From contig NZ_CP032698.1 of NCBI RefSeq assembly GCF_003627815.1, forward strand, positions 806,001 through 870,000: a stretch of 64,000 nt of DNA. The letters run 5' to 3'. The DNA is from Streptomyces hundungensis (GTDB lineage Bacteria > Actinomycetota > Actinomycetes > Streptomycetales > Streptomycetaceae). Below the pieces are notes generated by a model. It was not told the origin of the DNA. It searched no databases and was given only the letters and a program-made list of their open reading frames with translations. This document shows positions 17,530-32,849 of this stretch, piece by piece (position 1 is the first letter of the stretch; each line of letters starts with the position of its first letter). The position numbers were made by a program, and so were the translations under genes.

Positions 17530-17750
17530 GTGAAGCTGCGCCATGTCCGGTCCATAGCCGTGTTCGCGGTGGTTCTTGTCGCAGTTCGGACCGCCAGGTG
17601 CTGAGTGTTCCTACGCTCACCGTCAAGGACCTCGCCCCGGGACAGACCGCGGTCAACACCGTCACCGAGACGGCCGCCACCCCGGACACCGACATGCGCA
17701 CACTGGTCGGCGAGTGCATCGTCAGCCGGGTGGAGAAGACGAACTCCTGA
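17530..17750 (+). pseudogene. Decayed small secreted-protein gene
   Basis: A GTG at 17530 opens VKLRHVRSIAVFAVVLVAV, a good signal peptide, but this frame stops at 17604. The coding signal then continues in another frame as LTVKDLAPGQTAVNTVTE and onward to 17750, ending in a Cys-containing tail. Small Streptomyces secreted proteins with this kind of leader and a Gly/Ser-rich middle are common; here the middle seems deleted and the halves are out of frame. I read it as a pseudogene. Family membership is from memory and moderate in confidence. Confidence 0.5.
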
Positions 17751-17787: not shown

Positions 17788-19110
17788 CTATTCGGTCCGC
17801 CCGATCCCCCGGAAGCTCTCCAGGACCTCCAAGAGCCGTCGGGCGCCCGCCCTGTTCGCCGGGAGTGTGTCGTCGCCGCTCGTATCGACGGTCGCGTCCG
17901 TGAGGCCACCCAACAGGTCGCCCACCCGGACGCCCTTCACCGTTCCGTTCAAGAGGCCCACCATGCGGGCGACGCACTTCGCGTCCAGGGCGGTGGTCAC
18001 CGCGTGACCGTTGGTCGCACACACCCGCGCGTCCTCGGTCTCGCCCCACAGCACCGGCGCGGTCGCGCGCACGATCGTCTCGTCGCGCAGCGCGCGTGGC
18101 TCCTCGGGCGGGGGTACGGGGCGCAGGCCACCCGCTGTCCAGGTCCGCAGGGACTGCACGATCGCCCGGTCCCGCATACGCGCCGTTTCGGTGTACGTGC
18201 CCAACGTGCTCAGCGCCTGGTCGAGGGCGGCCGGCAGCCCGGTCGTCGCCGGATCGGGGACGGACAGCGACGCCGGGACGGCGGGCAGCCGCGACAGGGC
18301 GGCGTCCGGGTCCATCAAGGACTGGGCGTCGTGCTCCACGAGCAGGTCGTCGAGGTCGTACACCGCGCGGTGGTTCTCCCGCGGCACCCCCACGTTGACG
18401 CTGGTCGCCATCGACTTCCCCACGCTTTCACCTACGTGGTAATGGCTGGCGGGCCAGTACAGAAGGTCCCCGGGTTCCACCTCCGCGGTGCAGGAATCCG
18501 CGAGGTAGGGCTCGTAGTCGAGCACCGTGGTCGCCGTGTGGCTCCATGGGCGGTGGGTCCAGAAGCGCATGCGCTTGCGGCCCTGGACCGCGAAGAGGAA
18601 GGTGGCGAAGCGGTCCTTGTGCACGCCGACCGGCGTGTGCTCGTAGGTGCCGTGGAAGAGGGTGGTGATCGCTCCCGTCGTCGGCAGGCCCACCTGTTCC
18701 CACAGGCCGGCGAAGAAGGAGCGTTCGCGGTCCCACTGCGCGGCGTGAAAGGTGTGGAACGCGTGCACCATCAGTGCGTAACCGTCCGCGCGAACCTGTG
18801 GGTCCGTGGTCGCCAGGCGTTCGCCGTAGCCCGTGAACGTACGGTCCGAGGCACGCGGCAGCCACCTTCCGGGTGCCGTCTGCTGGAATCGTCCGACCGC
18901 GAACTGGGCGTGGGGCGGGATGAGATACGGATTTGGGGCTCGGGTCGCGCGCAGCGCCGCCTGGAACACCTCGTCCTCTTGGAAGGGCTCCGGGCGCACC
19001 GACTTGTACAACACGGGGTGCCGGTCCCAGTGGCGCGAGGTGAACGCACCCCAGTCGAAACGCTCTTCGACGATCACCTCGTGGTTCCTTTGCCTGTCGC
19101 TTACCGTCAA
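17788..19110 (-). CDS. JmjC-domain oxygenase (RiPP locus, intact Fe site)
   Basis: The 440-residue protein starts at TTG 19110, which follows GAGGAG and overlaps the upstream stop as TTGA. It is a cupin-type JmjC protein: the facial triad is visible as His164-x-Asp166 in VGVHKDRFATF and a distal His at 223/225 in YWPASHYHVG. The C-terminal 120 residues look like a winged-helix extension, as in ROXY-type protein hydroxylases. Such enzymes use Fe(II) and 2-oxoglutarate to hydroxylate protein side chains. Placed in an operon with a dehydratase and a small precursor gene, it probably modifies the precursor peptide. Last gene of the operon. Confidence 0.85.
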   Translation of the reverse strand: MTVSDRQRNHEVIVEERFDWGAFTSRHWDRHPVLYKSVRPEPFQEDEVFQAALRATRAPNPYLIPPHAQFAVGRFQQTAPGRWLPRASDRTFTGYGERLATTDPQVRADGYALMVHAFHTFHAAQWDRERSFFAGLWEQVGLPTTGAITTLFHGTYEHTPVGVHKDRFATFLFAVQGRKRMRFWTHRPWSHTATTVLDYEPYLADSCTAEVEPGDLLYWPASHYHVGESVGKSMATSVNVGVPRENHRAVYDLDDLLVEHDAQSLMDPDAALSRLPAVPASLSVPDPATTGLPAALDQALSTLGTYTETARMRDRAIVQSLRTWTAGGLRPVPPPEEPRALRDETIVRATAPVLWGETEDARVCATNGHAVTTALDAKCVARMVGLLNGTVKGVRVGDLLGGLTDATVDTSGDDTLPANRAGARRLLEVLESFRGIGRTE

Positions 19111-20324
19111 CGCCGTGTCTCCTCGTCCAGCAGCTCGACCGCTCGCAACCCGGCCAGCTTGGTGACGAGGGCGAGTACGGCCGTGTTGTGTTCGTCGGCA
19201 CCGACTGATCGGCAGAGCTGAGTGATCGTCAGCTGGCGTCCGGGGATGAGTTGTTCGGCGAGACGGGCTCCCGACGATCCGCCCACGGGAAAGGCGTGTC
19301 CTTCGGCGGCCCAGATCCATCGATTCGGCCCGTCGGGTATCCGGACGATGTCGCGCACCACTTCGATGCGCCGCCCGGGGGCCGGGGGTGCGGTCGGGCG
19401 GGGTGGGGGTGCGGGGTCGAGTCCGGCGGCCGAACGCAGAGCGGCCCAGCGGACCCGGAGCGCACGGGCGAGGTGCTCGTCCTTCATGACCGCCCCGGCA
19501 GCCTCGCCGACCTGGGTGAGTACCTGCGCGACGGGGGCGCCGCCGTCGGACGCCGCGGGCGCGGGAAAGGGCAGCAGGGGTACGGATCCGTCGCGGCCGA
19601 GGCGGTCGTGCACGGCGTCCGCGAGGAACGTCCTGACCGCGGTCGTGGCCAGCCGCGACGCCCTCGGCACATGGACACGCAGTGTCACACATCGCTCCGC
19701 GTGTCGTTCCTGGCTGCGGTATCCGTCCGGCCAGTACAGCAACTCACCGGCAGAGGCGGCGAGTTGCATGGGTTCGCCTTCCGTGCCGGGCCACAGGGTG
19801 ACCTCCAGGTTCCCTTCGAGAACCCAGAGCAGCACCGCGTGCTCGGAAGGGACACCCATGCCCCGGTCCCAGGTGAACCCCCGCGCCTCGGTCAGCTCGG
19901 CTTCGACGGGCAGGCAGGGCCACCCGACCGTGCGCCACAGTCCGGCCAGCGCGTCTCGCACGGCCGCCCACAGGGCGTAATCGAGGTGGAGGGGCCGGTG
20001 CACGCTCAGCAACAGCCCTGGGAGCGCCAACTCCCGTTCCGCGCGGGCGAGATACCGCTCGGCGCTCGTGTCGCCCGCGCCGGGCAGCAGTCGCCCCGGC
20101 GCGCCCAGCCATCCACGGGAGGTGTGCAGACGCACCTTCGGCAGCGCCCCGTAGACGGTGCCCGCACGGAACGGCTCGGCGGCTTTCACCACCAGCTCAT
20201 GGGCCCACGCGGCCGAGAACGGCACCGGGACGATGAATCGGCCCGGTCGGTGTCCCCAGTGGTGTGTCGCCAACTCGTCCCAGTACACGTCCTGTTCGCC
20301 CGTCACGCTCGTCACGTCCGTCAC
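19107..20324 (-). CDS. JmjC-like protein lacking its metal ligands
   Basis: The 405-residue product starts at GTG 20324, overlapping the previous stop as GTGA. Its layout matches the neighbouring JmjC enzyme: an N-terminal ELATHHWGHRPG segment, a cupin core with ELLYWP, and a winged-helix-like tail with WIWAAEGHAFPVGG. However the HxD position reads VPSEH (Pro159, Glu161), and the distal histidines are replaced by Tyr202 and Ser204. It therefore should not bind iron in the normal way. A non-catalytic partner or peptide-binding subunit of the intact JmjC protein is the simplest reading. Coupled to genes on both sides. Confidence 0.82.
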   Translation of the reverse strand: MTDVTSVTGEQDVYWDELATHHWGHRPGRFIVPVPFSAAWAHELVVKAAEPFRAGTVYGALPKVRLHTSRGWLGAPGRLLPGAGDTSAERYLARAERELALPGLLLSVHRPLHLDYALWAAVRDALAGLWRTVGWPCLPVEAELTEARGFTWDRGMGVPSEHAVLLWVLEGNLEVTLWPGTEGEPMQLAASAGELLYWPDGYRSQERHAERCVTLRVHVPRASRLATTAVRTFLADAVHDRLGRDGSVPLLPFPAPAASDGGAPVAQVLTQVGEAAGAVMKDEHLARALRVRWAALRSAAGLDPAPPPRPTAPPAPGRRIEVVRDIVRIPDGPNRWIWAAEGHAFPVGGSSGARLAEQLIPGRQLTITQLCRSVGADEHNTAVLALVTKLAGLRAVELLDEETRR

Positions 20325-22744
20325 GCCGGTTCCCTCACCGTGGGCGCGAAGCGCTCGCGCAGCCGCTGGGCGTATTCGTCCAGCGGGCAGAGCCCGACGG
20401 CGGCCCGGCGTTCGTCGACACGGGTCGGGTCCTCGATCGGGCAGGGCACGAGGTCTCCCGCCACGTCGCGGAACTTCGTCCCGTACACCTGCTCCCTCCC
20501 CTCCGCCCAGCGCAGTGCGTCGGTCAGATACGCGACCTCGCGCTCCGGCACATCGCCCTCCGCCGCGGCCTGCTCGACCAGACGCAGACAGCGGCGTTGG
20601 AAGTCGGTCCGGTCCACGAGGTGCTGGACCAGCCGGCTCGCCACGGCCGCGGCCTCCTCGCCCACGAGTCGTCGTCCCGGCCAGCCGTGTTCCGCGATCA
20701 CCCCATCGAGCCAGTCGGCCGCGGTGTCGGTCAACTGCCGTAGCCTGCGCTCCAGTTCCGTGTCCGTGAAGCCGCCCGCCGCCCACGGTTCGCGCAGGGC
20801 CGCGTCCACTCGGGCAAGGCGTCGCAGGCGTTCCCGGATGCGGTCGCACGGGCGCGCGGCCTCCCCGTCCGTCGGGCTCGTCCCGGGTGGCTCGTCCATC
20901 TCGTCGATGTGCAGCCGGAGTGTGGTCAGGGTCCAGGAGTAGGTGATCCGCCGTCCCGTCCCGGTCCACTCGAAGGACACCTCGCCGTCGTGCGGACCGT
21001 GCAGGGCGATCCGCACGCCGTCGTCGTGGAGCGTGACGTCGGGTCCGTCGAGGTCGGCGGCGACATGGGTGACGGCGTCGCGCAGGGCGACTCCGAGACC
21101 CGCGAGGTCGAGCCCGTGGCTCTCGCGTACGGCGGGTGCGGGCGGCCCGGCGTGGCCGTCGTCAAACTCCGGCAACCGCGCCTCGACGGTGCGTCCGTTC
21201 CGGGGGTCCAGCGCCCACAACGGTCCGCCGTCGGCTCTGCGGAAGAAGTACGGCACGTCGCCCCGCGCCAGTTGCGACCGTTCGTCGCGGGCGAGGACGA
21301 CGGTGTCGCCCGGGCCGGCCCCGAGGGCGTTCGCGTACTCCCGGGTGGGTCGTGCGAGGACACGTACGACGTGGTCGGGGGCGCGTTCCGCGATGAACTC
21401 CGCGATGCGTCGGCGGTTGCGGCACATCAGGGTCCAGGCGTCGAACATGCCCCGCAGCATCCGGCCCAGGTAGGGCCCGTAGCCGGTGCGGCCCTCCGTG
21501 TCCGCCACCAGCGACGGGGCCCGGGTGCGCGCGAGGGGGCGGGTCCTGCGGGTCAGGCGCAGCACCCCGTCGGCATCCTGGGTCCAACAGGTCGGCGGGC
21601 CGTCCAGGTCGCACCAGCGGGGCACGTTCTCCAGGCCCACGTGATGGTGTCCGGCGCCGAGCGGGCCCTGTACGAGTCCGGTGCCGGACAGCCGCTCCAC
21701 GTCGGTGAAGTAGACCTCGAGATCGACCGGGTAGAGCAGGGGGCCGTCGTCCCTCGGGCGGCTTCCGGCCGGCACGTTGGGCCCGATGAGATCGGCGATC
21801 CCGAACGCGAAGGCCGCCGCGGCCAGCGCGCCCGCCCGGTGCCAGAGCGCGCCGGCGCACGGCGGGTCCAACACCGTTGCGCGCAGGGCGAGTTCACCGT
21901 CGGTGCGCAGGTCGCCGATGGATGCGGGCGGCTCGATCCACTCGTGCCAGCTGTAGGCGGCGCCGTCGGGGTCTTGCCCCATCCGGCACCGCAGCACCGG
22001 GAGCCGTACCGGTCCCGATGCCGGGGGCAGGGCGTTGAGCAGCGCGAATACGGAATCGGGAGGTGCCCCCTCGGCGCTCTCGGCGAGGAAGAGCACCTCG
22101 CCGGAGGCCGGCCGAGGCTTGTAGGCGAGTCTCCCGCCCCCGGCGAACTCCACCCTCAGCACCCGGCCGCCGCCGTTGTGTGTCTCGTCGCCGTGTGCCC
22201 GGATCCCGCTCACGGGGCCGTCGAGCCCCGGCACGTCGGGCAGGCCGGCCGGGCGGTCGTGGGCCAGGCGGGCCAGGAAGAGGTCGAGGCAGCGTTCGAA
22301 CTGGGCGACGCGCAGCGCCGTGAAGTCGGCGGCCCGCCGTGCGGTCCGGGTCGCGCACGCCTCGAAGAGTTCCGTGACCACAGGACCGAACAGTTCGGCA
22401 TTGGTGACGTCGAGGACCCCGGGGGCGACCCGCCCCCTCTGTTGCTCGGCCGCCCGCAGGCACCAGGTGTCGAGCCGCTCAAGGGCCGCGGTCAAGGGCG
22501 TGAAGCGGTCGTCGGAGAGGGCCGTCGCCAGGGCATCGGACTCCGCGCGGCACTCCAGGTGCCGCACGACGCGGACGGTTCCGTCCGGCCCGTCCCCCAC
22601 GACGGGCGGGAACATTCCCTTGGCGCCCCCTGCGGCAAGGTTGGCCAGCAACTTCCTTACAGCGGACGGGAGTTGGCGGCTACCGGACGTTGTCGGCCTT
22701 GGCCCGGTGTCGGCGGTACGCAGCTCCCACAAGCATTCCGGCAT
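20321..22744 (-). CDS. LanM-type lanthipeptide dehydratase without cyclase, DUF6624-like tail
   Basis: This 807-residue protein matches the dehydratase half of class II LanM enzymes: the kinase-like Lys209 in YKPR, Asp318 and Asn323 in DLIGPN, Asp341 in PVDLE, Arg461/Thr467 in RVLARPTREY and GDVPYF at 495. From memory of CylM, Arg461 and Thr467 keep the spacing of the elimination residues R506/T512, while the usual His two places after the first Asp is Ile320. There is no LanC cyclase domain (no WCxG or CHG zinc motif). Instead the last 110 residues resemble DUF6624 (AEHGWPGRRLVGEEAA, VAYLTDALRWAEGR). ATG 22744 has a GGGGGAG site. It should dehydrate Ser/Thr of the upstream small peptide. Confidence 0.85.
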   Translation of the reverse strand: MPECLWELRTADTGPRPTTSGSRQLPSAVRKLLANLAAGGAKGMFPPVVGDGPDGTVRVVRHLECRAESDALATALSDDRFTPLTAALERLDTWCLRAAEQQRGRVAPGVLDVTNAELFGPVVTELFEACATRTARRAADFTALRVAQFERCLDLFLARLAHDRPAGLPDVPGLDGPVSGIRAHGDETHNGGGRVLRVEFAGGGRLAYKPRPASGEVLFLAESAEGAPPDSVFALLNALPPASGPVRLPVLRCRMGQDPDGAAYSWHEWIEPPASIGDLRTDGELALRATVLDPPCAGALWHRAGALAAAAFAFGIADLIGPNVPAGSRPRDDGPLLYPVDLEVYFTDVERLSGTGLVQGPLGAGHHHVGLENVPRWCDLDGPPTCWTQDADGVLRLTRRTRPLARTRAPSLVADTEGRTGYGPYLGRMLRGMFDAWTLMCRNRRRIAEFIAERAPDHVVRVLARPTREYANALGAGPGDTVVLARDERSQLARGDVPYFFRRADGGPLWALDPRNGRTVEARLPEFDDGHAGPPAPAVRESHGLDLAGLGVALRDAVTHVAADLDGPDVTLHDDGVRIALHGPHDGEVSFEWTGTGRRITYSWTLTTLRLHIDEMDEPPGTSPTDGEAARPCDRIRERLRRLARVDAALREPWAAGGFTDTELERRLRQLTDTAADWLDGVIAEHGWPGRRLVGEEAAAVASRLVQHLVDRTDFQRRCLRLVEQAAAEGDVPEREVAYLTDALRWAEGREQVYGTKFRDVAGDLVPCPIEDPTRVDERRAAVGLCPLDEYAQRLRERFAPTVREPA

Positions 22745-22839
22745 CGCACTCCCCCACCTGTCCGTGGCCGGCCTCGGCCAGGTAGCACGGGTGGTGCCGT
22801 CGCGGACGGACGGCACCACCCCTGTCAGCTTTCACACGG

Positions 22840-23001
22840 TCACTCCACGATGCAGTAGACCCGTATACAGGTGCTGCCCTGCGCGGCACGGTCCGGCGCG
22901 TCCTGCGGGAGCTCCTGCTCCAGCTCGCCGATCACCAGATCGAACACCTCGTCGGTGACCTGCGCCGCGCTCGTGGGGTCCTGGACCACAACAGCGTTCA
23001 T
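22840..23001 (-). CDS. Candidate RiPP precursor peptide, 53 residues
   Basis: A short gene with a perfect AGGAGG site five bases before its ATG lies 95 bp upstream of the dehydratase gene on the same strand. The first 40 residues are acidic and helical, containing VFDLVIGELEQELPQD, as expected of a leader peptide. The last 12 residues are GSTCIRVYCIVE: one Ser, one Thr and two Cys, which is what a lanthipeptide-type enzyme needs. There is no GG or GA cleavage site of the usual kind, so the leader/core boundary is uncertain; DRAAQG|STC is one possibility. Alternative in-frame upstream ATGs lack a ribosome-binding site. Confidence 0.72.
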   Translation of the reverse strand: MNAVVVQDPTSAAQVTDEVFDLVIGELEQELPQDAPDRAAQGSTCIRVYCIVE

Positions 23002-23145: not shown

Positions 23146-23882
23146 GAGTGCGTTTGCGTGCGGTTCTCCGATGGACGCCGCCAAAACTCCCGTCGTGGAA
23201 AAGGAGCCCGCTTTTGGACAGACTGCCGGCCGTCGGCGCGATCAAGAAGGCGCACGGTCCGCTTCGGACACGGACAGCGTCCCGCCGCCGTGCGTGAACA
23301 GCGCGAATTCGTCACCCCACCAGGCACCGCCGAAACGCGGTGTGCTCGCCGCTCGTTGTCGCCCGACGCTGCCACCAGGGGCTGGAGGGGTCAAGAGGGG
23401 CGCGGGGGCGGCAAACCGGCCGGGGGCCGGAGCGGCGGATCGCGTCTGAAAGCCGAGCACAAATTACTCACACCCTCTCTACATATGGGCTCCGGTGGTC
23501 TAAGTTGACCGTGCTTCAGCTCCTCGGATACGGGGCGACCAATAATGATCTACGGGTCCGGTGCTGGACGGTCGGCGACCATGTCCTGGCACCGTCCATG
23601 GGGGTGATCAATTCTTGGGTTCGGGCAGGGGGTCTTAAGCGGGGCGGGCGGCCTCGGGTGCGGGGAGCACCGGGGGTTCAGCGTTTTTCCCACCACTGGT
23701 AATTCCGGCAGGCTTACGAGCCCGCTTGCGCCGGTGTGGGCGTTCAAAGGGCACTGAACAGCCGAAATGTCATGCCAAGGGCATGGGTTTCGTGGGGGAG
23801 GCAGTGCGGGAGGCGGGGGCCTCCCAGGGGGAGGAACAGTGTTGCGCGAACCCTACGAACCACTGGCGACCTGGGGGGTCGT
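23146..23882. other. 737-bp intergenic region between divergent loci
   Basis: No convincing gene was seen on either strand; the open frames lack ribosome-binding sites and family signatures. Bases 23450-23570 are markedly richer in A/T than the surroundings and contain TTGACC at 23505, with ATACGG 17 bp later as a weak promoter candidate for the polysaccharide operon. The length suggests a regulated upstream region with a long leader. Confidence 0.45.
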
Positions 23883-25361
23883 ATGCGGCAGGGGGGATTA
23901 GTCAGCCCGTTTCCGTCGACGCGCAGACGTCTGGCGAACGGGGTCATCAGCCGGCCCGCGATGGACTGGGAGCAGCGGTACCGCCGTACCGTCATCACGG
24001 GCGACGCCCTGGCCACCTCATGTGTGGTGATGGCGATCGGGCTCTTCTTCGGGGCTCGCGACGCGGCCAACTGGCACGAGAAGTGGGGCATCCTCTCGTT
24101 CGGCACCGAACTGCTGGTGCTGGGAACGCTGGTGGTGGGCCGGGCCTGGGCTCCGGCCGTGCTCGGCCAGGGTGCCGAGGAATTCCGCCGGCTCGGACGC
24201 GCGCTGTCCACGTCGGCGGTGGTGCTGGCGCTGGAGGGCATCGCCCTCACCTCGCGCAACATCAAACTCTGGATCTTCGTCGCGATTCCCGCGATCGCCC
24301 TGGTCACCATGACCGAGCGCTACCTTCTGCGCCTCTGGCTGCACAAGCGACGCAAGCAGGGCGAGTGTCTGCGGCCGGTACTGGCCGCCGGGAGCCCGGA
24401 GTCCGTACGCGACCTGATCATCCGCACCCGCAAGTTCCCGCACCTGGGCTGGCGGGTGGAGGCGGTGTGCACGACGGACGGCCTCGGTGTCGACGGTGAC
24501 CAGCTGGCCGGAGTGCCGGTCGTCGGCCGGCTGGCGGACATCGCGGGCCACGTCCGTCGCGACGGCTACCGGGTCGTGGCCGTCACACCTGACCCGCACT
24601 GGTCACCCGACCGGTTGCAGCGTCTGGCGTGGAACCTCGAAGGCAGCGACGTGGAGATGGTCGTGGCGCCCGTCCTCATGGAGGTGGCGGGGCCCCGGCT
24701 GCACGTCGACGCGGTGCTCGGGATCCCGCTGTTGCGCGTGAGCATGCCGACCTTCACCGGGGGACGCCGAGCGGTCAAGGAGGTCGTCGACCGGTTGGGC
24801 GCGGCGATCCTGCTGGTGCTCTTCGCACCGTTGATGGCGCTCGTGGCGCTGCTCGTCCTGGCGGACAGCCGGGGCGGCGCGTTCTACCGGCAGCGCAGGG
24901 TGGGCAAGGACGGCCGCGAGTTCACCATCCTCAAGTTCCGCACCATGGTGGCCGGGGCCGACCGTGCGCGGGCCGAGCTGGCCGACCGCAACGAGGGTGC
25001 GGGGCTGTTGTTCAAACTGCACCGGGACCCACGGGTGACCCGGGTGGGCGCGGTGCTGCGCCGCTACTCGATCGACGAGCTGCCGCAGCTCCTCAACGTA
25101 CTCACCGGATCGATGTCGCTCGTCGGCCCGCGTCCTCCGCTGCCCGAGGAGTCCGCCGCGTACGGGCCCGACATTCGGCGGCGGCTGCTGGTCAAGCCGG
25201 GACTCACCGGGTTGTGGCAGATCAGCGGACGCAGTGACCTTCCCTGGGAGGAGGCGGTCCGGCTCGACCTGCGGTACGTGGAGGACTGGTCGCTCGCCCT
25301 GGACACGGTGATCTTGTGGAAGACCCTGCGTGCGGTGGTCTACGGGCAGGGGGCCTACTGA
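23883..25361 (+). CDS. Polyprenyl-phosphate sugar-1-phosphate transferase (WbaP/CpsE-like)
   Basis: The 492-residue protein has an N-terminal set of four to five membrane helices and a CoA-binding-like middle domain. The C-terminal transferase has the signatures FYRQRRVGKDG, FTILKFRTM, YSIDELPQLLNVL, MSLVGPRPP and GLTGLWQISGRS. It starts glycan assembly by moving a sugar-1-phosphate from a nucleotide sugar to undecaprenyl phosphate at the membrane. It is the first gene of the polysaccharide operon. ATG 23883 is chosen because the coding signature begins there; the upstream GGGGGG is only a weak ribosome-binding site, so the exact start is less sure. Confidence 0.93.
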   Translation: MRQGGLVSPFPSTRRRLANGVISRPAMDWEQRYRRTVITGDALATSCVVMAIGLFFGARDAANWHEKWGILSFGTELLVLGTLVVGRAWAPAVLGQGAEEFRRLGRALSTSAVVLALEGIALTSRNIKLWIFVAIPAIALVTMTERYLLRLWLHKRRKQGECLRPVLAAGSPESVRDLIIRTRKFPHLGWRVEAVCTTDGLGVDGDQLAGVPVVGRLADIAGHVRRDGYRVVAVTPDPHWSPDRLQRLAWNLEGSDVEMVVAPVLMEVAGPRLHVDAVLGIPLLRVSMPTFTGGRRAVKEVVDRLGAAILLVLFAPLMALVALLVLADSRGGAFYRQRRVGKDGREFTILKFRTMVAGADRARAELADRNEGAGLLFKLHRDPRVTRVGAVLRRYSIDELPQLLNVLTGSMSLVGPRPPLPEESAAYGPDIRRRLLVKPGLTGLWQISGRSDLPWEEAVRLDLRYVEDWSLALDTVILWKTLRAVVYGQGAY

Positions 25362-25434
25362 TGCGCGAACGGGGTCGTTCGGCGGGCGCCCGGCCTCCGG
25401 GCCGGGGCGGTCTGCCAGGGGAAAGGGGCGGGGC

Positions 25435-26748
25435 ATGAGGGTCAGTGTCTTCGGGCTCGGCTACGTGGGCTGCGTGTCGGCCGCGTGCCTGGCCAGCATG
25501 GGGCACGAGGTGATCGGGGTGGACGTGAACCAGGTCAAGGTCGACCTGGTCAACGAGGGCAAGGCCCCCGTCGTCGAGGAACGGATCGCCGATCTCACCG
25601 CCGAGGTGGTGCGGGCCGGGGCACTGCGCGCCACCCGCGACGTGCGGGAGGCGATCAGGGGCAGTGAGATATCGCTGATCTGTGTGGGCACGCCGTCGGA
25701 GCCCAACGGCAGCCTGTGCACGACCTACTTGGAACGGGTCACCGAACAGATCGGCGCGGCCCTGGCCGAACGGGGCGGGCGCCAGACCATCGTGTTCCGC
25801 AGCACCATGCTCCCGGGCACCTGTCTGAACCTGCTGGTGCCCATCTTGGAGAAGTACGTCGGCGGCACGGCCGGGGTGAGCTTCGGGGTGGCGGTCAACC
25901 CGGAGTTCCTGCGCGAGGGCACGAGCGTGCGCGACTTCTTCGACCCGCCCAAGACCGTCATCGGCGAGCTCGACCCGGCAAGCGGCGACGCGGTGGCGGC
26001 GCTGTACGAGGGGCTGCCCGGCGAGGTGTTCCGGGTGCCCATCCCGACCGCCGAGGCGATCAAGTACGCGGACAACGCGTTCCACGGGCTCAAGATCGGC
26101 TTCGCAAATGAAGTGGGCGCGGTGTGCCGGGCGCTCGGCGTGGACTCCCACCAGGTGATGGACGTGTTCCTCGCCGACCGCAAGCTGAACATCAGCCCCG
26201 CCTATCTGCGCCCCGGCTTCGCCTTCGGCGGCTCCTGTCTGCCCAAGGACCTGCGCAGTTTCGTGCACGCGGCGCGGCGGGCCGATGTGTCGGTCCCGAT
26301 CCTCGCTCATGTGCTGCCGTCCAACTCCGACCATTTGCAGCGGGCCGTGGAGCTGGTCGAGCGCACCGGCAAACGCCGGGTGGGACTGTTCGGGCTGTCC
26401 TTCAAGCCGGGCACCGACGACCTGCGCGAGAGCCCGCTCGTCGAGCTCGCGGAGCGACTCTTCGGACGGGGCTACGACCTGCGGATCTACGACGCGAACG
26501 TGAGCCTGTCCCGGCTGATCGGCGCCAACCGCGAGTACATCGAGACCCGGCTGCCCCACCTCGCCCAGTTACTGGCGACCTCCGTGGACGACGTCCTTGA
26601 CCATGCCGAGGTGTGCCTGGTCGGCACCAGGGACCCGGACGTTCTGGCCGCCCTGCCCCACGGCGGCCCGGTGCTGATCGATCTCGTCCGCGTGCCCGAC
26701 GCCGATGCGCGCCGTGCCGAACCCGGGTACGTGGGCCTTGCCTGGTGA
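25435..26748 (+). CDS. UDP-glucose/GDP-mannose dehydrogenase family (AlgD-like), with a TTA codon
   Basis: This 437-residue enzyme oxidises a nucleotide sugar to its uronic acid in two NAD steps. The NAD fold is MRVSVFGLGYVGCV, the catalytic Cys is in FGGSCLPKDL, and LSFKPGTDDLRESP marks the C-terminal domain. GSCLPKD and the spacing favour the GDP-mannose dehydrogenase/AlgD side, but UDP-glucose cannot be excluded. Codon 379 (26569-26571) is TTA, the only TTA found in the genes read here, which would make synthesis depend on the bldA leucine tRNA. AAAGGGG precedes the ATG. The next gene overlaps its end by 44 bp. Confidence 0.92.
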   Translation: MRVSVFGLGYVGCVSAACLASMGHEVIGVDVNQVKVDLVNEGKAPVVEERIADLTAEVVRAGALRATRDVREAIRGSEISLICVGTPSEPNGSLCTTYLERVTEQIGAALAERGGRQTIVFRSTMLPGTCLNLLVPILEKYVGGTAGVSFGVAVNPEFLREGTSVRDFFDPPKTVIGELDPASGDAVAALYEGLPGEVFRVPIPTAEAIKYADNAFHGLKIGFANEVGAVCRALGVDSHQVMDVFLADRKLNISPAYLRPGFAFGGSCLPKDLRSFVHAARRADVSVPILAHVLPSNSDHLQRAVELVERTGKRRVGLFGLSFKPGTDDLRESPLVELAERLFGRGYDLRIYDANVSLSRLIGANREYIETRLPHLAQLLATSVDDVLDHAEVCLVGTRDPDVLAALPHGGPVLIDLVRVPDADARRAEPGYVGLAW

Positions 26749-28018
26749 CGCGCAGGGTGGCGACCGGCGGGGCCGGCGCGCGCTGATCCTGGTGGAGAAC
26801 CTGTCGGTGCCCTTCGACCGGCGGGTCTGGCAGGAGTGCACGACGCTGCGCGAGGCGGGCTGGAGGGTGGACGTCATCTGCCCCCGGGGGCGGACCCGGG
26901 ACACGGAGGCGGAGGCGGAGATCGACGGGGTGCGGATCCACCGCTATCCCCTGCGGGCGGCCACCGCGGGCCCGGCCGGCTATCTGCGGGAGTACGGATC
27001 GGCGCTGTGGCACACGGTTCGGCTCGCCCGCAGGGTCGGCCCGGTCGATGTGGTCCACGCCTGCAACCCGCCCGACCTGCTGTTCCTGCCGGCCCTGTGG
27101 CTCAAGCGGCGCGGCGCCCGCTTCGTCTTCGACCAGCACGACCTGGTGCCCGAGCTGTACCTGTCCCGGTTCGACCGCGGCGAGGACCTGCTCTACCGCG
27201 CCGTGTGCGCCCTTGAACGGCTGACCTATCGGGCCGCGGACGTCGTGCTCGCCACCAACGAGAGCTATCGGGACGTCGCGTTGCGACGCGGCGGCCGACG
27301 GCCTCAGGACGTGTTCGTGGTGCGCAGCGCCCCCGCGAGCGACCGCTTCCAACCGGTGCCGCCCGAACCGGAGTTGAAGCGGGGCAAGCCGCATCTGCTG
27401 TGCTACCTCGGCGTCATGGGGCCGCAGGACGGCGTCGACTACGCCCTGCGGGCCCTCGCGAAGCTGCGTGACGAGATCGGCCGCGCGGACTGGCACGCGG
27501 TGTTCATCGGTGCCGGTGACGCCTTCGATGAGATGGTGCGGCTGTCCGAGCGGCTCGGTCTCACCGACCAGGTGCAGTTCACGGGACGGATTCCGGACGC
27601 CGACCTGGTGCGCTACCTGTCCACAGCTGACGTGTGCCTCTCCCCCGACCCGCACAATCCGCTCAACGACGTGTCGACCATGAACAAGGTCCTGGAGTAC
27701 ATGGCGATGGGCCGGCCGATCGTCTCGTTCGACCTGCGGGAGGCACGGGTCTCCGCCGGTGACGCCGCCGTCTACGCACCCGCCAACGACGAGGCCCAAT
27801 TCGCCCGTCTCATCGGCGAGTTGCTCGACGATCCGGAGCGGCGGGCCCGGATGGGCAAGGTCGGCCAGGAGCGGATCGGCGGGGAGCTTTCCTGGCGGAA
27901 CTCCCAGCGATCGCTGCTGGCGGCCTACGCCGCCGCCTGCCGTGACCGCGTCCCGCCGACGCCGGACACCCCGGCCCGGCAGACCGGCGAAGGAGAGGGC
28001 CGCGCCGTTGAGCGATGA
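26705..28018 (+). CDS. Glycosyltransferase family 4 (WbuB-like)
   Basis: The 437-residue GT-B protein has the N-terminal motif LILVENLSVPFDRRVWQE, the DQHDLVPELY segment, and the C-terminal nucleotide-sugar region STADVCLSPDPHNPLNDVST followed by EYMAMGRPIV. These are typical of actinomycete GT4 enzymes that add an early sugar to the lipid-linked unit. It starts inside the dehydrogenase gene; ATG 26705 and GTG 26714 are both possible. Confidence 0.9.
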   Translation: MRAVPNPGTWALPGDAQGGDRRGRRALILVENLSVPFDRRVWQECTTLREAGWRVDVICPRGRTRDTEAEAEIDGVRIHRYPLRAATAGPAGYLREYGSALWHTVRLARRVGPVDVVHACNPPDLLFLPALWLKRRGARFVFDQHDLVPELYLSRFDRGEDLLYRAVCALERLTYRAADVVLATNESYRDVALRRGGRRPQDVFVVRSAPASDRFQPVPPEPELKRGKPHLLCYLGVMGPQDGVDYALRALAKLRDEIGRADWHAVFIGAGDAFDEMVRLSERLGLTDQVQFTGRIPDADLVRYLSTADVCLSPDPHNPLNDVSTMNKVLEYMAMGRPIVSFDLREARVSAGDAAVYAPANDEAQFARLIGELLDDPERRARMGKVGQERIGGELSWRNSQRSLLAAYAAACRDRVPPTPDTPARQTGEGEGRAVER

Positions 28019-29366
28019 CACCATACGCCTGGTCACGATCGGGCGGATCCTCCGTCGCCGTCGGCGGTTTCTCCTCATCATCGCCGTGGTGGGCGCGCTC
28101 GTCGGTTACGGCGCCTCGATGCTGTTTCCGCCGCGTTACACGGCCACCGCGTCGGTCCTGCTGCCGGGGCAGTGGGAGGAGCGCGAGTTGCTGACCCAGT
28201 CGGAGATCGCGGCGAGTTCGGCGGTGGTGGACCGCGCGGCCGACGCGCTCGGCTGGCGGGACGTCAACCGGAGCGAACTGCGGAATCGGGTGAGCGCACA
28301 GGCCTCCGACGGGAACATCATCAAGATTTCCGCCACGGCCGATCGCCCGGCGCGCGCGCAGCAACTCTCCGACCAGGTCGCCCAGCAGTTCGTCACCTTC
28401 GCCGCGCGGATCGCGGGCAGCGGCGCCGACTCCGATCCGACGTCGGGACCCGAGGCCCTGCGCAAACAGGTGGCGGAGACCAATCAGCGCATCAGCGACC
28501 TCGCCAAGGCGGCCGACCCCGGACAGACCGTGGAGAGCGTGCAGGCCCGCACCGAACTGGAGAAGCTGCGCACCGGGCTGCAAGAGGCGATGAAGAAGCT
28601 GGACCTGGCCGACCAGACCGCCAACAAGGCCGGCATGGTCGTCATGGGCCCGGCGGCCCGGCCGACCGCCCCCGCGCCACCGACCACGACGCAACTCGTC
28701 GTCGCCGGGGCGGTGTTGTTCCTCCTGCTCGCGGTCGTCGGCCATCTCGCCGCCGCACGGATGAACCGCCGACTGCGTACGCCGGCGGAGATCGCCGCCG
28801 CGCTGGGCTCGACGCTGCTCGGGACCGTCGACGTACCCCAGGAGCGTCCCGCGCACCGCGCCGAGGGCCCAGGTCCGCGGGCTCGGGTCGGCCGCCTGCT
28901 CGGAGTCGACACCCGGTGGGACATCCCGATCCCACGGACCTGGGCCGCCGAGGCCGAACAGCGGATCCGCTACCAGCGGATCTGTGCCCATCTGCGCGAG
29001 CAACTGCCGGGCGCGGAGCGGCTGTTGGTGGTCGTGCCGGGCGGGGACGACATCGGCCGAGGGGCCGCGGAGCGGCTCGTGGCCGAGGCCGGGAGCACCC
29101 CGCGGCTGCGGACGGTGCGCGTCCCGGTGTCCCAGCCGATGGTGCCGGACCGCGTCACCGAGTCCGGCGCCCTCGTCGTGCTGAGCGTGGGCAGCCGCAC
29201 CGCGGAGGAACTCGCGGACCTCGCCGGGGCGTGCGCGGACGGCGGACATGTCGTCGTCGGTGTCGTGGTCGCCGGTCCGGTCCGGCCCTCCTCCGCCGTC
29301 CAGCCATCGGAGCACCGAGCTCCCGAGCTCGCGGTTCACCAGCACGCGGCGGGGGGTTCTGCGTGA
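28008..29366 (+). CDS. Wzz-type chain-length/polysaccharide co-polymerase protein A
   Basis: The 452-residue protein has a membrane helix near residues 22-42, a 180-residue extracellular region with a helical segment (SDLAKAADP to MKKLDLADQ), and a second helix near 224-246. This is the two-span Wzz layout. The cytoplasmic tail of 200 residues resembles the position of a BY-kinase domain but has no Walker A motif (VVVPGGDDIGRGAAER). TTG 28008 follows AAGGAGAGG. It controls polymer length or assembly with Wzy; tyrosine kinase activity is not expected. Confidence 0.8.
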   Translation: MSDDTIRLVTIGRILRRRRRFLLIIAVVGALVGYGASMLFPPRYTATASVLLPGQWEERELLTQSEIAASSAVVDRAADALGWRDVNRSELRNRVSAQASDGNIIKISATADRPARAQQLSDQVAQQFVTFAARIAGSGADSDPTSGPEALRKQVAETNQRISDLAKAADPGQTVESVQARTELEKLRTGLQEAMKKLDLADQTANKAGMVVMGPAARPTAPAPPTTTQLVVAGAVLFLLLAVVGHLAAARMNRRLRTPAEIAAALGSTLLGTVDVPQERPAHRAEGPGPRARVGRLLGVDTRWDIPIPRTWAAEAEQRIRYQRICAHLREQLPGAERLLVVVPGGDDIGRGAAERLVAEAGSTPRLRTVRVPVSQPMVPDRVTESGALVVLSVGSRTAEELADLAGACADGGHVVVGVVVAGPVRPSSAVQPSEHRAPELAVHQHAAGGSA

Positions 29367-30883
29367 CGACGAGCACGACGTCCCGGTCGGAGACGGCCGT
29401 TCCGCTTCTGGATCTGCACGCGCTGGTCGCGGCGGTCCGCAGGCGCCGCCGCCTGTGGTGCTCCATGGCACTGATCGGGCTGCTGCTCGGCGCGGCGACG
29501 GCGGTCCTGTTGAAGCCGCCGCCCACCGCGGTCACCACGGTGCTGGTCGCGCACGAGAGCGACCAGCCCAACGACCCCGGAACCCTGATCCGTACCGATG
29601 TCGCGCTCCTGGGAACCACCCGGATCGCCGGCGCGGCCCTGGGCGCGCTCAACTCCCCCGAACGCGCCGAGGACTTCCTGCGGGAGTACACGGCCACCGG
29701 CCTGACCAACAACCTGCTGCTCATCACCGTGACAGGCGCGAGCCAGGCGCAGGCGGTGGCCCGCGCCAAGGCGCTGGCGGACGCCTTCGTGGCGGACCAC
29801 GCGCAGCGGATACAGGCGGCGTCCGACGCCGAGGCCAAAGCGCTGCTCGGGCAGCGTGACCGTATGCGGGACGAACTGGCCCAGGTCAACAAGGAGATCG
29901 GGACCCGGACGCCGGGCAACGACCCCAGGGCGTCGGCGAGCATCGAGTCGCTCTTCGCGCACCGGGCCGAACTCAGCTCCCGCATCACCGACTTCGATCA
30001 GCGGGCAGCGGAGGCCCGTACCGGCATGCCCAAGCTCGTCGCGGGCACGCAGATCGTGGACTCCCCGCGCGCGGTGCCGCATTCGGTGCCGAAGGCCGTG
30101 CTGACCGACGCCGCGATCGGACTCGTACTCGGGCTCGTCCTCGGCCTCGCGCTGGCGGCGGTCGGCTCGGTGGTCGCGGACCGTCCCGTGCTGCGCAGGG
30201 AGATCGCGGCGCACCTGGGTGCCTCGGTCATCGCCGAGCTGCCCGGCCGCACGGGCAGGCGGTGGCGGCGCGGACGGGCCCGGGCGGCCCAGGAGCGGTT
30301 GACCGCGACCGTGGTCCGTGCCGTGCGCGGCGCGGGGGAACCGGTCTCGCTCCTGGAACTGGGCTGTGCGCGCAGCGCCGGCCTGATCGCGTGGAACGTC
30401 GCCAAGGCGCTGGCGGTGGAAGGTCCGGTGGCCGTCGTCGACGCCCTGCCCGGACCTGAACTCGCCGCGTTGGGCCGGGAGTCGGGAGGTCCGGCCGTGG
30501 TGCGCGCCCAGGACGTGGCGGATCTGCCGCAGCGGACGCGCCGGCTCGGTGTCGGCTCGGTCGCGCCCGGCGCGGCATGGCTGGACCTGCCCCACCTCGG
30601 TGCGCAGACCGTGCTCGTGGTCCGCGCCGGGCACGCCGGCGCCGCATGGCTGCACACCGTGGCGCGGCAACTCACCGACCAGCGCATTCCGGTGATCGGT
30701 GTGGTGCTGATCGACCCCGATCCGCGGGACCGGACCGACGGCACGCTGTGGGACGGGCTGTACACGGCGCTGCGCGGCCATCACGAGCGGCTGGTGCGGC
30801 GGAACGGGACGGGGCTGCCGCGCGCGGTGCGGCCGGCGATGCCGCCCGTACGGGTCCCGGACAGCGATCAGGAGGCGCGCTAG
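29363..30883 (+). CDS. Wzz-type chain-length/polysaccharide co-polymerase protein B
   Basis: A second Wzz-like protein (506 residues) begins at GTG 29363, overlapping the previous stop as GTGA. Membrane helices lie near residues 34-52 and 253-275 with a periplasmic-type coiled region between. The tail reads SLLELGCARSAGLIAWNVAK where a BY-kinase would have its Walker A loop, so the nucleotide site appears lost, though the following VAVVDALPG resembles Walker A'. It probably works with protein A as a paired assembly regulator. Confidence 0.8.
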   Translation: MTTSTTSRSETAVPLLDLHALVAAVRRRRRLWCSMALIGLLLGAATAVLLKPPPTAVTTVLVAHESDQPNDPGTLIRTDVALLGTTRIAGAALGALNSPERAEDFLREYTATGLTNNLLLITVTGASQAQAVARAKALADAFVADHAQRIQAASDAEAKALLGQRDRMRDELAQVNKEIGTRTPGNDPRASASIESLFAHRAELSSRITDFDQRAAEARTGMPKLVAGTQIVDSPRAVPHSVPKAVLTDAAIGLVLGLVLGLALAAVGSVVADRPVLRREIAAHLGASVIAELPGRTGRRWRRGRARAAQERLTATVVRAVRGAGEPVSLLELGCARSAGLIAWNVAKALAVEGPVAVVDALPGPELAALGRESGGPAVVRAQDVADLPQRTRRLGVGSVAPGAAWLDLPHLGAQTVLVVRAGHAGAAWLHTVARQLTDQRIPVIGVVLIDPDPRDRTDGTLWDGLYTALRGHHERLVRRNGTGLPRAVRPAMPPVRVPDSDQEAR

Positions 30884-30885
30884 AG

Positions 30886-32832
30886 ATGTGTGGCATCGCA
30901 GGCACCTACCGGTGGCCGGACGGGAAGCTCGTGACCGACCGGCTCACCGACACCCTCGCCCACCGCGGCCCGGACGGCGCGGGCCACTACAGCCACCCGC
31001 TGGGGGACGGCGACGTACACCTGGGGCACCGCAGGCTCGCCATCATCGACCTGTCCGAGACCGGCGCCCAGCCGATGGTGTCGGGCGGACTGGCCCTGAC
31101 ATACAACGGCGAGCTGTACAACTCACCTGAATTGCGGGCCGAGTTGACGGCCAAGGGGGTCCGCTTTCGCGGTACGTCCGACACCGAGGTGCTGTTGGAG
31201 GCCTGGCGGCACTGGGGCACGGACTGTCTGCCCCGGCTGCGCGGCATGTTCGCGTTCGCGGTCTTCGACGAGCGGACCGGTGAGCTGGTGCTCGCCCGCG
31301 ACCAGCTCGGCATCAAACCGCTGTTCCTGCTGCGGCGCGGGGCGGGCCTGGTGTTCGCCTCCGAACTCAAGGCGCTCGCCGCCGTGGACGGCGCGGCGCT
31401 CGAGGTGGACCACACAGCTCTGGTGGCCTCGCTCCTGTACTACTGGGTGCCGGATTCGCGCTGTGCCTTCCGGGACGTGGAGAAGCTGCCGCCGGGGAGC
31501 TGGCTGAGGTGCCGTCCCGACGGCCGGGTGGAGCGCGGCCGGTTCTGGAACCTGAAGGACGTGGCCGCCGAAGGCCGCGAGCGGGCCCTCGACGGTGAGC
31601 GGCCGGACCTGGCCGCCGTGGTCGAGGAGTCGACACGGCGGCACCTGCTGTCCGACGTACCGGTGGCGACCTTCCTCTCGGGCGGTCTCGACTCCAGTCT
31701 CCTCACCGCGCTGGCGAGCCGGCATCAGCCCGGGATCTCCGCCTACACGATCGGGTTCCGCGCCGAGGACGCCAAGTTCGAGGCGATGCCGGACGATCTG
31801 CGCTACGCCCGGCAGGTCGCCGAGCGGTTCGGCGTCGAACTGCACGAGATCGAGATCGCTCCGAACGTGCTCGACCTGCTGCCGCGGATGACGTACCACC
31901 TGGACGAGCCGATCGGTGACCCCGCGGCGATCAACACCTTCCTGATCTGCTCGGCCGCCCGGGAAGCCGGGATCAAGGTGATGCTGTCCGGGATGGGGGC
32001 CGACGAGCTGTTCGCCGGGTACCGCAAGCACCTGGCCAATGTGCTGGCGCTGCGCTATCAACGGGTGCCGCGGCCCCTGCGGCGGGGGCTGTCCTCGGCC
32101 GTGGACCGGCTTCCGGTCGCCACCTCCCGCAGGGGGTTCAGGTCGGTGCGCTTCGCGAAACGGTTCCTGTCCTTCGCCGATCTGCCGGAGGAGACCGCCT
32201 TTCGGCGCAGCTACACCCTGTACGACCAGGAGGAGTTGCTCGCACTGGTCAATCCGGACCTGTCCGGGGCCGTCCAGGACGTGCTGACCGAGCACGCGGA
32301 CGTCTACCGGGACAACGACCTCGACGACTTCGTCAACCGCATGTGCCTGGGCGACACACGGATGTTCCTGCCGGGCCTGAACCTCGCCTACACCGACCGG
32401 TCGAGCATGGCCGCCTCGACGGAGGTGCGGGTGCCCTATGTGGACGTCGAGGTGGTGAAGGCGGCGTTCGCGATCCCGGGTGACCGCAAGATCGTCGGAC
32501 GGCAGGGCAAGGCCGCCCTCAAGGAGGCGGCCACCTCGATCCTGCCCCGGGAGATCGTCTACCGGCCCAAGGGGCTGTTCAGCGCCCCCCTGCGCGCCTG
32601 GATGAGCCGGGATCTCGCGCCGCTGGTGCGCGAGGTGGTGCACGACGGGGTGCTCGTGCGTTCCGGGTTGCTGCGCCGGGACGCGCTGGCCCGGATGGTC
32701 GCCCAGGACGCCGCCGGGCAGCGGGACTTCTCCAAGCATCTGTGGCACGTGCTGACGCTCGAGCACTGGTACCGCGAGGCGACCTCCGGTTCCGGCGGGA
32801 GCACGCGCACGGCGGGCACGGAACACGGCTGA
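30886..32832 (+). CDS. asnB: Asparagine synthetase-like amidotransferase (AsnB family)
   Basis: The 648-residue enzyme keeps the N-terminal nucleophile Cys2 (MCGIAGTYRWP), the glutaminase loop AHRGPDGAGHY, and the synthetase PP-loop TFLSGGLDSS with LSGMGADELFAGY. It can therefore use glutamine and ATP to amidate a carboxylate. In glycan operons AsnB homologues are thought to amidate uronic acids, and a sugar dehydrogenase that makes uronic acids is encoded in this operon. Start chosen for Cys2, with AGGAGG eleven bases upstream. The gap to the previous gene is 2 nt. Confidence 0.93.
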   Translation: MCGIAGTYRWPDGKLVTDRLTDTLAHRGPDGAGHYSHPLGDGDVHLGHRRLAIIDLSETGAQPMVSGGLALTYNGELYNSPELRAELTAKGVRFRGTSDTEVLLEAWRHWGTDCLPRLRGMFAFAVFDERTGELVLARDQLGIKPLFLLRRGAGLVFASELKALAAVDGAALEVDHTALVASLLYYWVPDSRCAFRDVEKLPPGSWLRCRPDGRVERGRFWNLKDVAAEGRERALDGERPDLAAVVEESTRRHLLSDVPVATFLSGGLDSSLLTALASRHQPGISAYTIGFRAEDAKFEAMPDDLRYARQVAERFGVELHEIEIAPNVLDLLPRMTYHLDEPIGDPAAINTFLICSAAREAGIKVMLSGMGADELFAGYRKHLANVLALRYQRVPRPLRRGLSSAVDRLPVATSRRGFRSVRFAKRFLSFADLPEETAFRRSYTLYDQEELLALVNPDLSGAVQDVLTEHADVYRDNDLDDFVNRMCLGDTRMFLPGLNLAYTDRSSMAASTEVRVPYVDVEVVKAAFAIPGDRKIVGRQGKAALKEAATSILPREIVYRPKGLFSAPLRAWMSRDLAPLVREVVHDGVLVRSGLLRRDALARMVAQDAAGQRDFSKHLWHVLTLEHWYREATSGSGGSTRTAGTEHG

Positions 32833-32849
32833 GAAACAAGGGGACTTGG

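Follow-up and report, generated by a model that had tools for sequence, protein, structure and literature searches.

Gene organization of the locus

We analysed a 64,000-nt stretch of Streptomyces hundungensis DNA, hereafter the window (GCF_003627815.1, NZ_CP032698.1, positions 806,001-870,000), in which four minus-strand genes, A, M, J1 and J2 in that order, lie at 17788-23001. An earlier note, made from the sequence alone, had read them as a locus for a ribosomally synthesized and post-translationally modified peptide (RiPP), with a cyclase-less LanM-type dehydratase and two JmjC-type proteins. The genes were indeed arranged as that note had placed them, with 4-nt overlaps at M/J1 and J1/J2, and with a gap of 95 nt between A and M. 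The features were as follows.

22840-23001, minus strand: A, precursor peptide of 53 aa, AGGAGG ahead of its ATG
22789-22821, minus strand: A-M hairpin, with a perfect stem of 13 bp
20321-22744, minus strand: M, 807 aa from ATG, DUF4135 plus C-terminal DUF6624
20348-20821, minus strand: DUF6624 domain of M, residues 642-799 (PF20329, E 2.5e-17)
19107-20324, minus strand: J1, 405 aa, GTG start, JmjC fold without the iron triad
17788-19110, minus strand: J2, 440 aa, TTG start, JmjC_2 (Pfam E 6.4e-8)

For M, an alternative GTG start at 22819 was likewise open. The Pfam scan gave DUF4135 at E 2.1e-15 in M, and neither A nor J1 had any Pfam match up to E 10.

The four genes recur together, with a conserved peptide core

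M was used to scan genome contigs, one genome per species for 84,980 species, which yielded 36 further loci, and the four proteins were then located in these loci by tblastn. A was found upstream of M in all 35 loci with room for it (locus L036 begins inside M), J1 in 36/36 (in L026 and L032 the contig stops within it) and J2 in all 34 with room. Thus, every part of the cluster not lost to a contig edge was found in all related loci. Since the same order recurs in 36 loci from other genomes, it is not due to chance. The hosts belong to Streptomyces, Kitasatospora, Nonomuraea, Sphaerisporangium, Kribbella and Catenulispora, with one Nocardiopsaceae bin. M was present in 10 of 295 sampled Streptomyces genomes at E 1e-30 or better. 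In a six-frame search, the precursor motif was present in 11/11 further loci (10 genomes, two of the loci coming from G223).

Peptide A has a leader with FDLVIGELEQE and a core ending in GSTCIRVYCIVE, in which T44, C45, Y49 and C50 stand out. The motif [ST]-C-x3-5-Y-C was present in 40/40 precursors, from 36 loci including the window (39 fit x3-4, and L032 has x5), and the other core residues vary. The leader common to the 40 is centred on LVIG[DE]LE, with small variants. The core motif was kept even where M is only about 46-52% identical, and the Ser/Thr and Cys expected in the core of a LanM substrate are present. In L025 and L030, a single Ser/Thr lies within the last 17 residues. The earlier note had asked for this search of related genomes, and would have given up its claim on finding loci without the peptide gene, or a tail that varied while the enzymes did not; we saw neither, the tail being conserved together with the enzymes. 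Its view of the genes as a RiPP locus, built around JmjC proteins and a dehydratase of the LanM type, is well supported.

Two core types were distinguished, one with two Cys, as in the window, the other with four Cys, of the form SGSGT[AS]CG[ST]Cx3YCC. Four loci (L005, L008, L011 and L023) carry two tandem precursor genes before one M, and the cores of each pair differ, for example STCVRIYCVPNL and GTCGLHLYCILK in L005; this suggests two products or a two-component peptide. Most precursors carry their own Shine-Dalgarno sequence. Among eleven loci of the four-Cys clade, third codon positions held most of the changes (739 vs 264 and 195, equal-length pairs).

M is a LanM-type dehydratase fused to DUF6624

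M is a LanM-type dehydratase, with the CylM fold, a kinase fold and the catalytic residues kept, fused to DUF6624. The residues were judged by the roles that we take those of CylM to have, their positions in M being obtained partly from the structure alignment and partly by motif matching. CylM aligned to the model of M at a root-mean-square deviation (rmsd) of 3.2, the alignment ending at model residue 582. The same-protein C-terminal LanC domain of LanM enzymes is missing: residues 642-799 are DUF6624, without a LANC_like match in Pfam, and the NCBIfam LanM model TIGR03897 scored 34.6 bits against a cut-off of 304. The description of M as cyclase-less was therefore right about the LanC domain, but had overlooked the fused DUF6624.

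The fusion is a constant feature. Among the best 120 of 170 M homologues, for which domains were taken from precomputed annotation, 119 had DUF4135 and DUF6624, and the remaining one, of 500 aa, had DUF4135 only. Within DUF6624, H708, D742, Q752, T756 and R780 were found in 46/46 aligned sequences. Fold searches with the whole M model returned LanM and kinase matches, and the LicM2 alignment that reached DUF6624 did so at rmsd 17.8. Fodinicola acaciae has two different DUF4135-DUF6624 proteins (P0054 and P0064), probably two copies in one genome.

The idea that DUF6624 is a simple stand-in for LanC was weakened by the relatives that carry a LanC gene and retain DUF6624 in the precomputed annotation (e.g., S. 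griseus, S. anulatus and S. pini). That it might be a RiPP-only domain was rejected on examining 20 neighbourhoods of stand-alone actinomycete copies: these have few neighbours in common, and none contained a relative of the M dehydratase, J1, J2, A or LanC at E 0.01. In three loci (L095, L106 and L109), a stand-alone DUF6624 gene has a related protein nearby, which in L106 is a PCMT-type (isoaspartate) methyltransferase, a hint that DUF6624 is tied to peptide or protein modification. In PMC13097080, the one paper with DUF6624 that our search found, the domain is reported to co-occur with graspetide synthetases of groups 18, 20, 23 and 42, and is called a possible undiscovered biosynthetic enzyme class; there the link to RiPPs is by co-occurrence, whereas here the domain is fused to a dehydratase.

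J1 and J2, two related JmjC proteins with one iron site

J1 and J2 are related JmjC proteins, whose nearest PDB entries by profile are YcfD and NO66. Over its whole chain, J1 has the fold of the YcfD/NO66 type, with a JmjC domain, a helical middle and a winged-helix-like C-terminus. Residues 319-399 are predicted to form strands and then helices, an order compatible with the definition in PMC12710340. The iron triad HxD...H was present in 18/18 aligned J2 rows (H164-x-D166...H225) and in 0/15 aligned J1 rows. J2 is probably an Fe(II)/2-oxoglutarate (2OG) oxygenase, and J1, judging from the lost ligands, is a pseudo-oxygenase. Hence there would be one active oxygenase per locus, and the claim of two JmjC-type proteins stood as to fold but not as to the iron site of J1.

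A general cellular oxygenase is an unlikely identity for J2, as strong matches were confined to M-bearing genomes. Among the 295 Streptomyces, J2 relatives occurred in 18 at 1e-6, all 10 M-bearing genomes among them, and matches below 1e-100 occurred only in those 10; at 1e-8, J2 was found in only 2 of 296 genomes of the class, both of which carry M. Three Streptomyces have orphan J1-J2 pairs without M (L122 8568-11008, L123 8856-11218 and L124 7340-9444), in which the iron ligands of J2 are lost in all three and those of J1 in the two examined. This would be a doubly inactive JmjC pair retained for some other role. A class III aminotransferase and an aldehyde dehydrogenase adjoin the pair in L122, and no precursor was seen beside the orphan pairs in the stretches listed.

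A stand-alone LanC accompanies the four-Cys cores

In 19 loci, a LANC_like gene lies directly after J2 (the copy in L029 is broken into frames). Three of these proteins were scanned and matched LANC_like at E 1.4e-44 to 1.2e-46, and WCYG and CHG, presumably zinc ligands, are kept in all 18 unbroken ones. The four-Cys core is present at all 19 LanC loci. Fifteen further loci have J2; in 13 of them the sequence runs far enough beyond J2 to hold a LanC but has none, and L025 and L036 end there. A four-Cys core without LanC was seen only in L026, whose contig ends in J1, and the core of L036 was not seen. A tree built from 36 M proteins placed the 19 LanC loci on one branch (100/100), nested at the midpoint root; L025 was labelled "none" on it despite its contig end, and the window, L026 and L032 bore no label. 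Because the root is weak (68/33), gain and loss of LanC are not told apart for certain.

When two related LanCs served as tblastn queries at E up to 1, no LanC-like sequence was found in the window. The whole genome gave 4 LanC-domain matches, each within an open frame of 967-1108 aa and the nearest some 40 kb away from the cluster; a stand-alone LanC was not found. The LanC-free gene set of the earlier note thus held for the window, but not family-wide. As 19 relatives carry LanC, LanC-free closure is just one option, limited to the two-Cys type, in which any ring would need to form with no LanC encoded beside the cluster. The strongest, though indirect, sign of thioether-type products in this family is the correlation between LanC and four-Cys cores, which favours such a product in the LanC-bearing clade.

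A proposed pathway and its alternatives

From the gene set and its order, their conservation, the catalytic residues, the folds and the LanC/four-Cys correlation, all of them observed, we infer the chemical steps, the pairing of J1 with J2, the oxidation site and the ring closure given below. We lean towards a minimal operon that makes a dehydrated and oxidised lanthipeptide-like RiPP, a reading that we hold to be rather likely on sequence grounds. The DUF4135 domain of M would phosphorylate core Thr44 (Ser in some relatives) and eliminate the phosphate, leaving dehydrobutyrine (Dhb) next to Cys45. J1 and J2 would work as a pair, in which J2, the sole holder of an iron site, would oxidise one core residue, for which the invariant Tyr49, or some other residue within T-C-x3-Y-C, is the best candidate; J1 would be a scaffold, possibly binding the leader through its C-terminal winged helix. 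Cys50 would then add to Dhb44, giving a single methyllanthionine ring that spans i to i+6. Closure might be unaided or take place inside M in the window type, and in the sister clade the stand-alone LanC might close the extra rings. For removal of the leader and for export, the operon would draw on genes elsewhere. The dehydrated and hydroxylated product that the earlier note had implied is likewise what we infer. In decreasing order of certainty, we commit to Thr dehydration by M, then core oxidation by J2 with J1 as a partner, then a single T44-C50 methyllanthionine. For this ring in the window type, our confidence falls just short of an even call.

Several observations weigh against this proposal. 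Within M, the position of CylM D252 is Glu in 46/46 aligned sequences, and the position aligned to CylM H349 is not conserved (46 aligned). The dehydratase may also need DUF6624 or a partner, because the dehydratase domain of CcaM alone was inactive according to PMC10676384. The window-type cluster has no LanC nearby. Clustering of flank open reading frames (ORFs) of at least 90 aa found no exporter or protease recurring with the cluster. The ratio dN/dS of A was 0.49-1.63 by pair among the window, L002, L003 and L004, and therefore purifying selection on the whole of A was not shown in these four nearest loci. Finally, since orphan J1-J2 pairs exist, the pair can serve another role.

Three of the alternatives concern single steps and overlap with the proposal. 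Rings are what the sister clade points to, but an invariant second Cys and the lack of LanC leave room for a window-type product that is dehydrated without lanthionine: Dhb44 would stay, Cys45 and Cys50 would form a disulfide or be oxidised by J2, and the LanC of the sister clade would be a later addition for the extra Cys. We regard this as possible, though on the unlikely side. One ring needs just one Cys and both are invariant; LanC is absent from the window and no stand-alone copy was found in the genome; the LanC loci form one nested branch at the midpoint root. Carnazolamide (PMC10676384) is a precedent, being the product of a DUF4135 enzyme that contains dehydro residues but lacks lanthionine. 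Nevertheless, closure is feasible when a Cys follows a dehydro residue at a distance of six, and with so weak a root LanC may equally have been lost. The LanC domain of another synthetase in the genome could instead close the ring in trans, given the four matches, but all are in frames of 967-1108 aa, none lies within 40 kb, and LanM and LanKC cyclase domains usually require their own leader; we find this quite improbable. A carbon-sulfur or other oxidative cross-link made by J2 in T-C-x3-Y-C, so that the ring would come from the oxygenase and not from Michael addition, seems improbable as well. It would fit an oxygenase present wherever the dehydratase is, a Tyr next to Cys and a Thr/Ser next to Cys that are invariant in 40/40 precursors, and a window type without cyclase; yet the solved relatives YcfD, MINA53 and NO66 are named hydroxylases, and BipG, a JmjC RiPP enzyme, hydroxylates Orn (PMC12707348).

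In another reading, DUF6624 would be a RiPP domain of a new kind, catalytic or cyclising, and would close the T-C-x3-Y-C ring or carry out another obligatory step. The family would then be a separate lanthipeptide-like class, with a cyclase unrelated to LanC, and LanC would have been recruited later by the four-Cys clade; we think this unlikely. It is very improbable that the locus is not a RiPP locus, with a protein of the cell as the target of M, J1 and J2, and with A as an ORF that is either spurious or regulatory. The orphan pairs without M or a visible precursor would agree with it, as would the ribosomal protein substrate of YcfD (by entry names), the lack of a visible exporter and the dN/dS of A near 1 among close relatives. 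However, the presence of A in every locus with room, its duplication in four, mostly with a Shine-Dalgarno sequence of its own, and a core motif that outlasts the divergence of M all speak for a precursor.

Relation to known systems

M resembles LanM enzymes (CylM, 5dzt; LicM2, 6st5) in its DUF4135 dehydratase fold, its catalytic residues and a leader-core Ser/Thr/Cys precursor encoded directly upstream; it differs by DUF6624 in place of a fused LanC, by Glu for Asp252 and by the two JmjC proteins. CcaM/LanMbC of the dehydrazoles (PMC10676384) is likewise a DUF4135 enzyme of an unusual type that lacks the standard class II cyclase. However, the cyclase domain of CcaM is of the class III type, and the enzyme depends on azoles made by a YcaO protein, whereas in M the domain following DUF4135 is DUF6624. 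The ribosomal oxygenases YcfD/RoxA, NO66 and MINA53 are the best PDB matches of J1 and J2 by profile (YcfD and NO66) and of J1 by whole-length fold, but here an active/inactive pair stands beside a precursor gene, and J1 has no iron site. BipG, the ornithine hydroxylase of biphenomycin, is likewise a JmjC oxygenase acting on a RiPP core (PMC12707348); it belongs to another class, with an MNIO, a B12 radical S-adenosylmethionine (SAM) protein and an arginase, and is set beside J2 by description, not by sequence. A different RiPP-like locus, in L126 (5570-9199) and L127 (7368-12628), has a JmjC protein, a B12-binding radical SAM protein and a major facilitator superfamily transporter (scanned in L127), with an additional short peptide-like ORF beside these genes in L127; it is possibly another JmjC-tailored RiPP.

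No description of this gene set was found in the literature within reach of our search, which excluded most subscription papers and all preprints. We rate the system as a lanthipeptide-like RiPP variant, in which the dehydratase lacks the fused LanC of a LanM and is accompanied by a tailoring pair not seen beside it in the literature searched. In this operon, a single short and conserved core is joined by a LanM-type dehydratase, DUF6624 and a ribosomal-oxygenase-like pair with one active and one inactive member. Its four small genes pose testable questions: the role of DUF6624, LanM-type rings without LanC, and why a 2OG oxygenase keeps a dead copy. The LanC-bearing sister clade offers a natural comparison, with and without cyclase, on related precursors. 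Mining that starts from LanC matches, as in PMC7268733, is expected to miss the window type.

The A-M hairpin and the surroundings of the cluster

Hairpins that let the precursor RNA exceed the enzyme RNA are common in RiPP operons. Perfect stems of at least 12 bp lie between A and M in 9 of 36 loci examined, one of which (L030) has no gap. We aligned 21 chosen loci, retaining L037, L025 and L024 in the count despite their being out of register; a 10-bp version forms at 9 or 10 pairs in 18 of the 21. Its cells were paired at 91.2% vs 41-65% in slid controls, with both-side changes at 3 pairs, and the covariation score was reached by 3/500 shuffles, although related rows can beat shuffles even without structure. 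Further pair types, one of five measures, were not above shuffles (329/500). An attenuator or a processing site is possible.

Ten window proteins, a part of the genes of the window, were scanned with Pfam. There was neither an exporter nor a YcaO protein among these ten, to which the YcaO scan was confined; one of them is an alpha/beta hydrolase that also matches, more weakly, the S33 aminopeptidase family. The flank ORF families common to most loci sit in the four-Cys clade, where the J2-adjacent gene is LanC; the remaining clusters, part of which were named, resembled local synteny or antisense frames. Downstream of J2, at about 17530-17750 on the plus strand, lies a remnant of a small lipoprotein-like gene, with a recognisable start and end and a missing middle as compared by eye with an open 184-aa frame in L002 (13540-14094, minus strand). 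On the other side, divergent exopolysaccharide-type genes start right upstream of A (23871-35030, plus strand), encoding a sugar transferase, a UDP-glucose dehydrogenase and a glycosyltransferase, and farther on a 762-aa zinc-ADH/GFO_IDH_MocA fusion.
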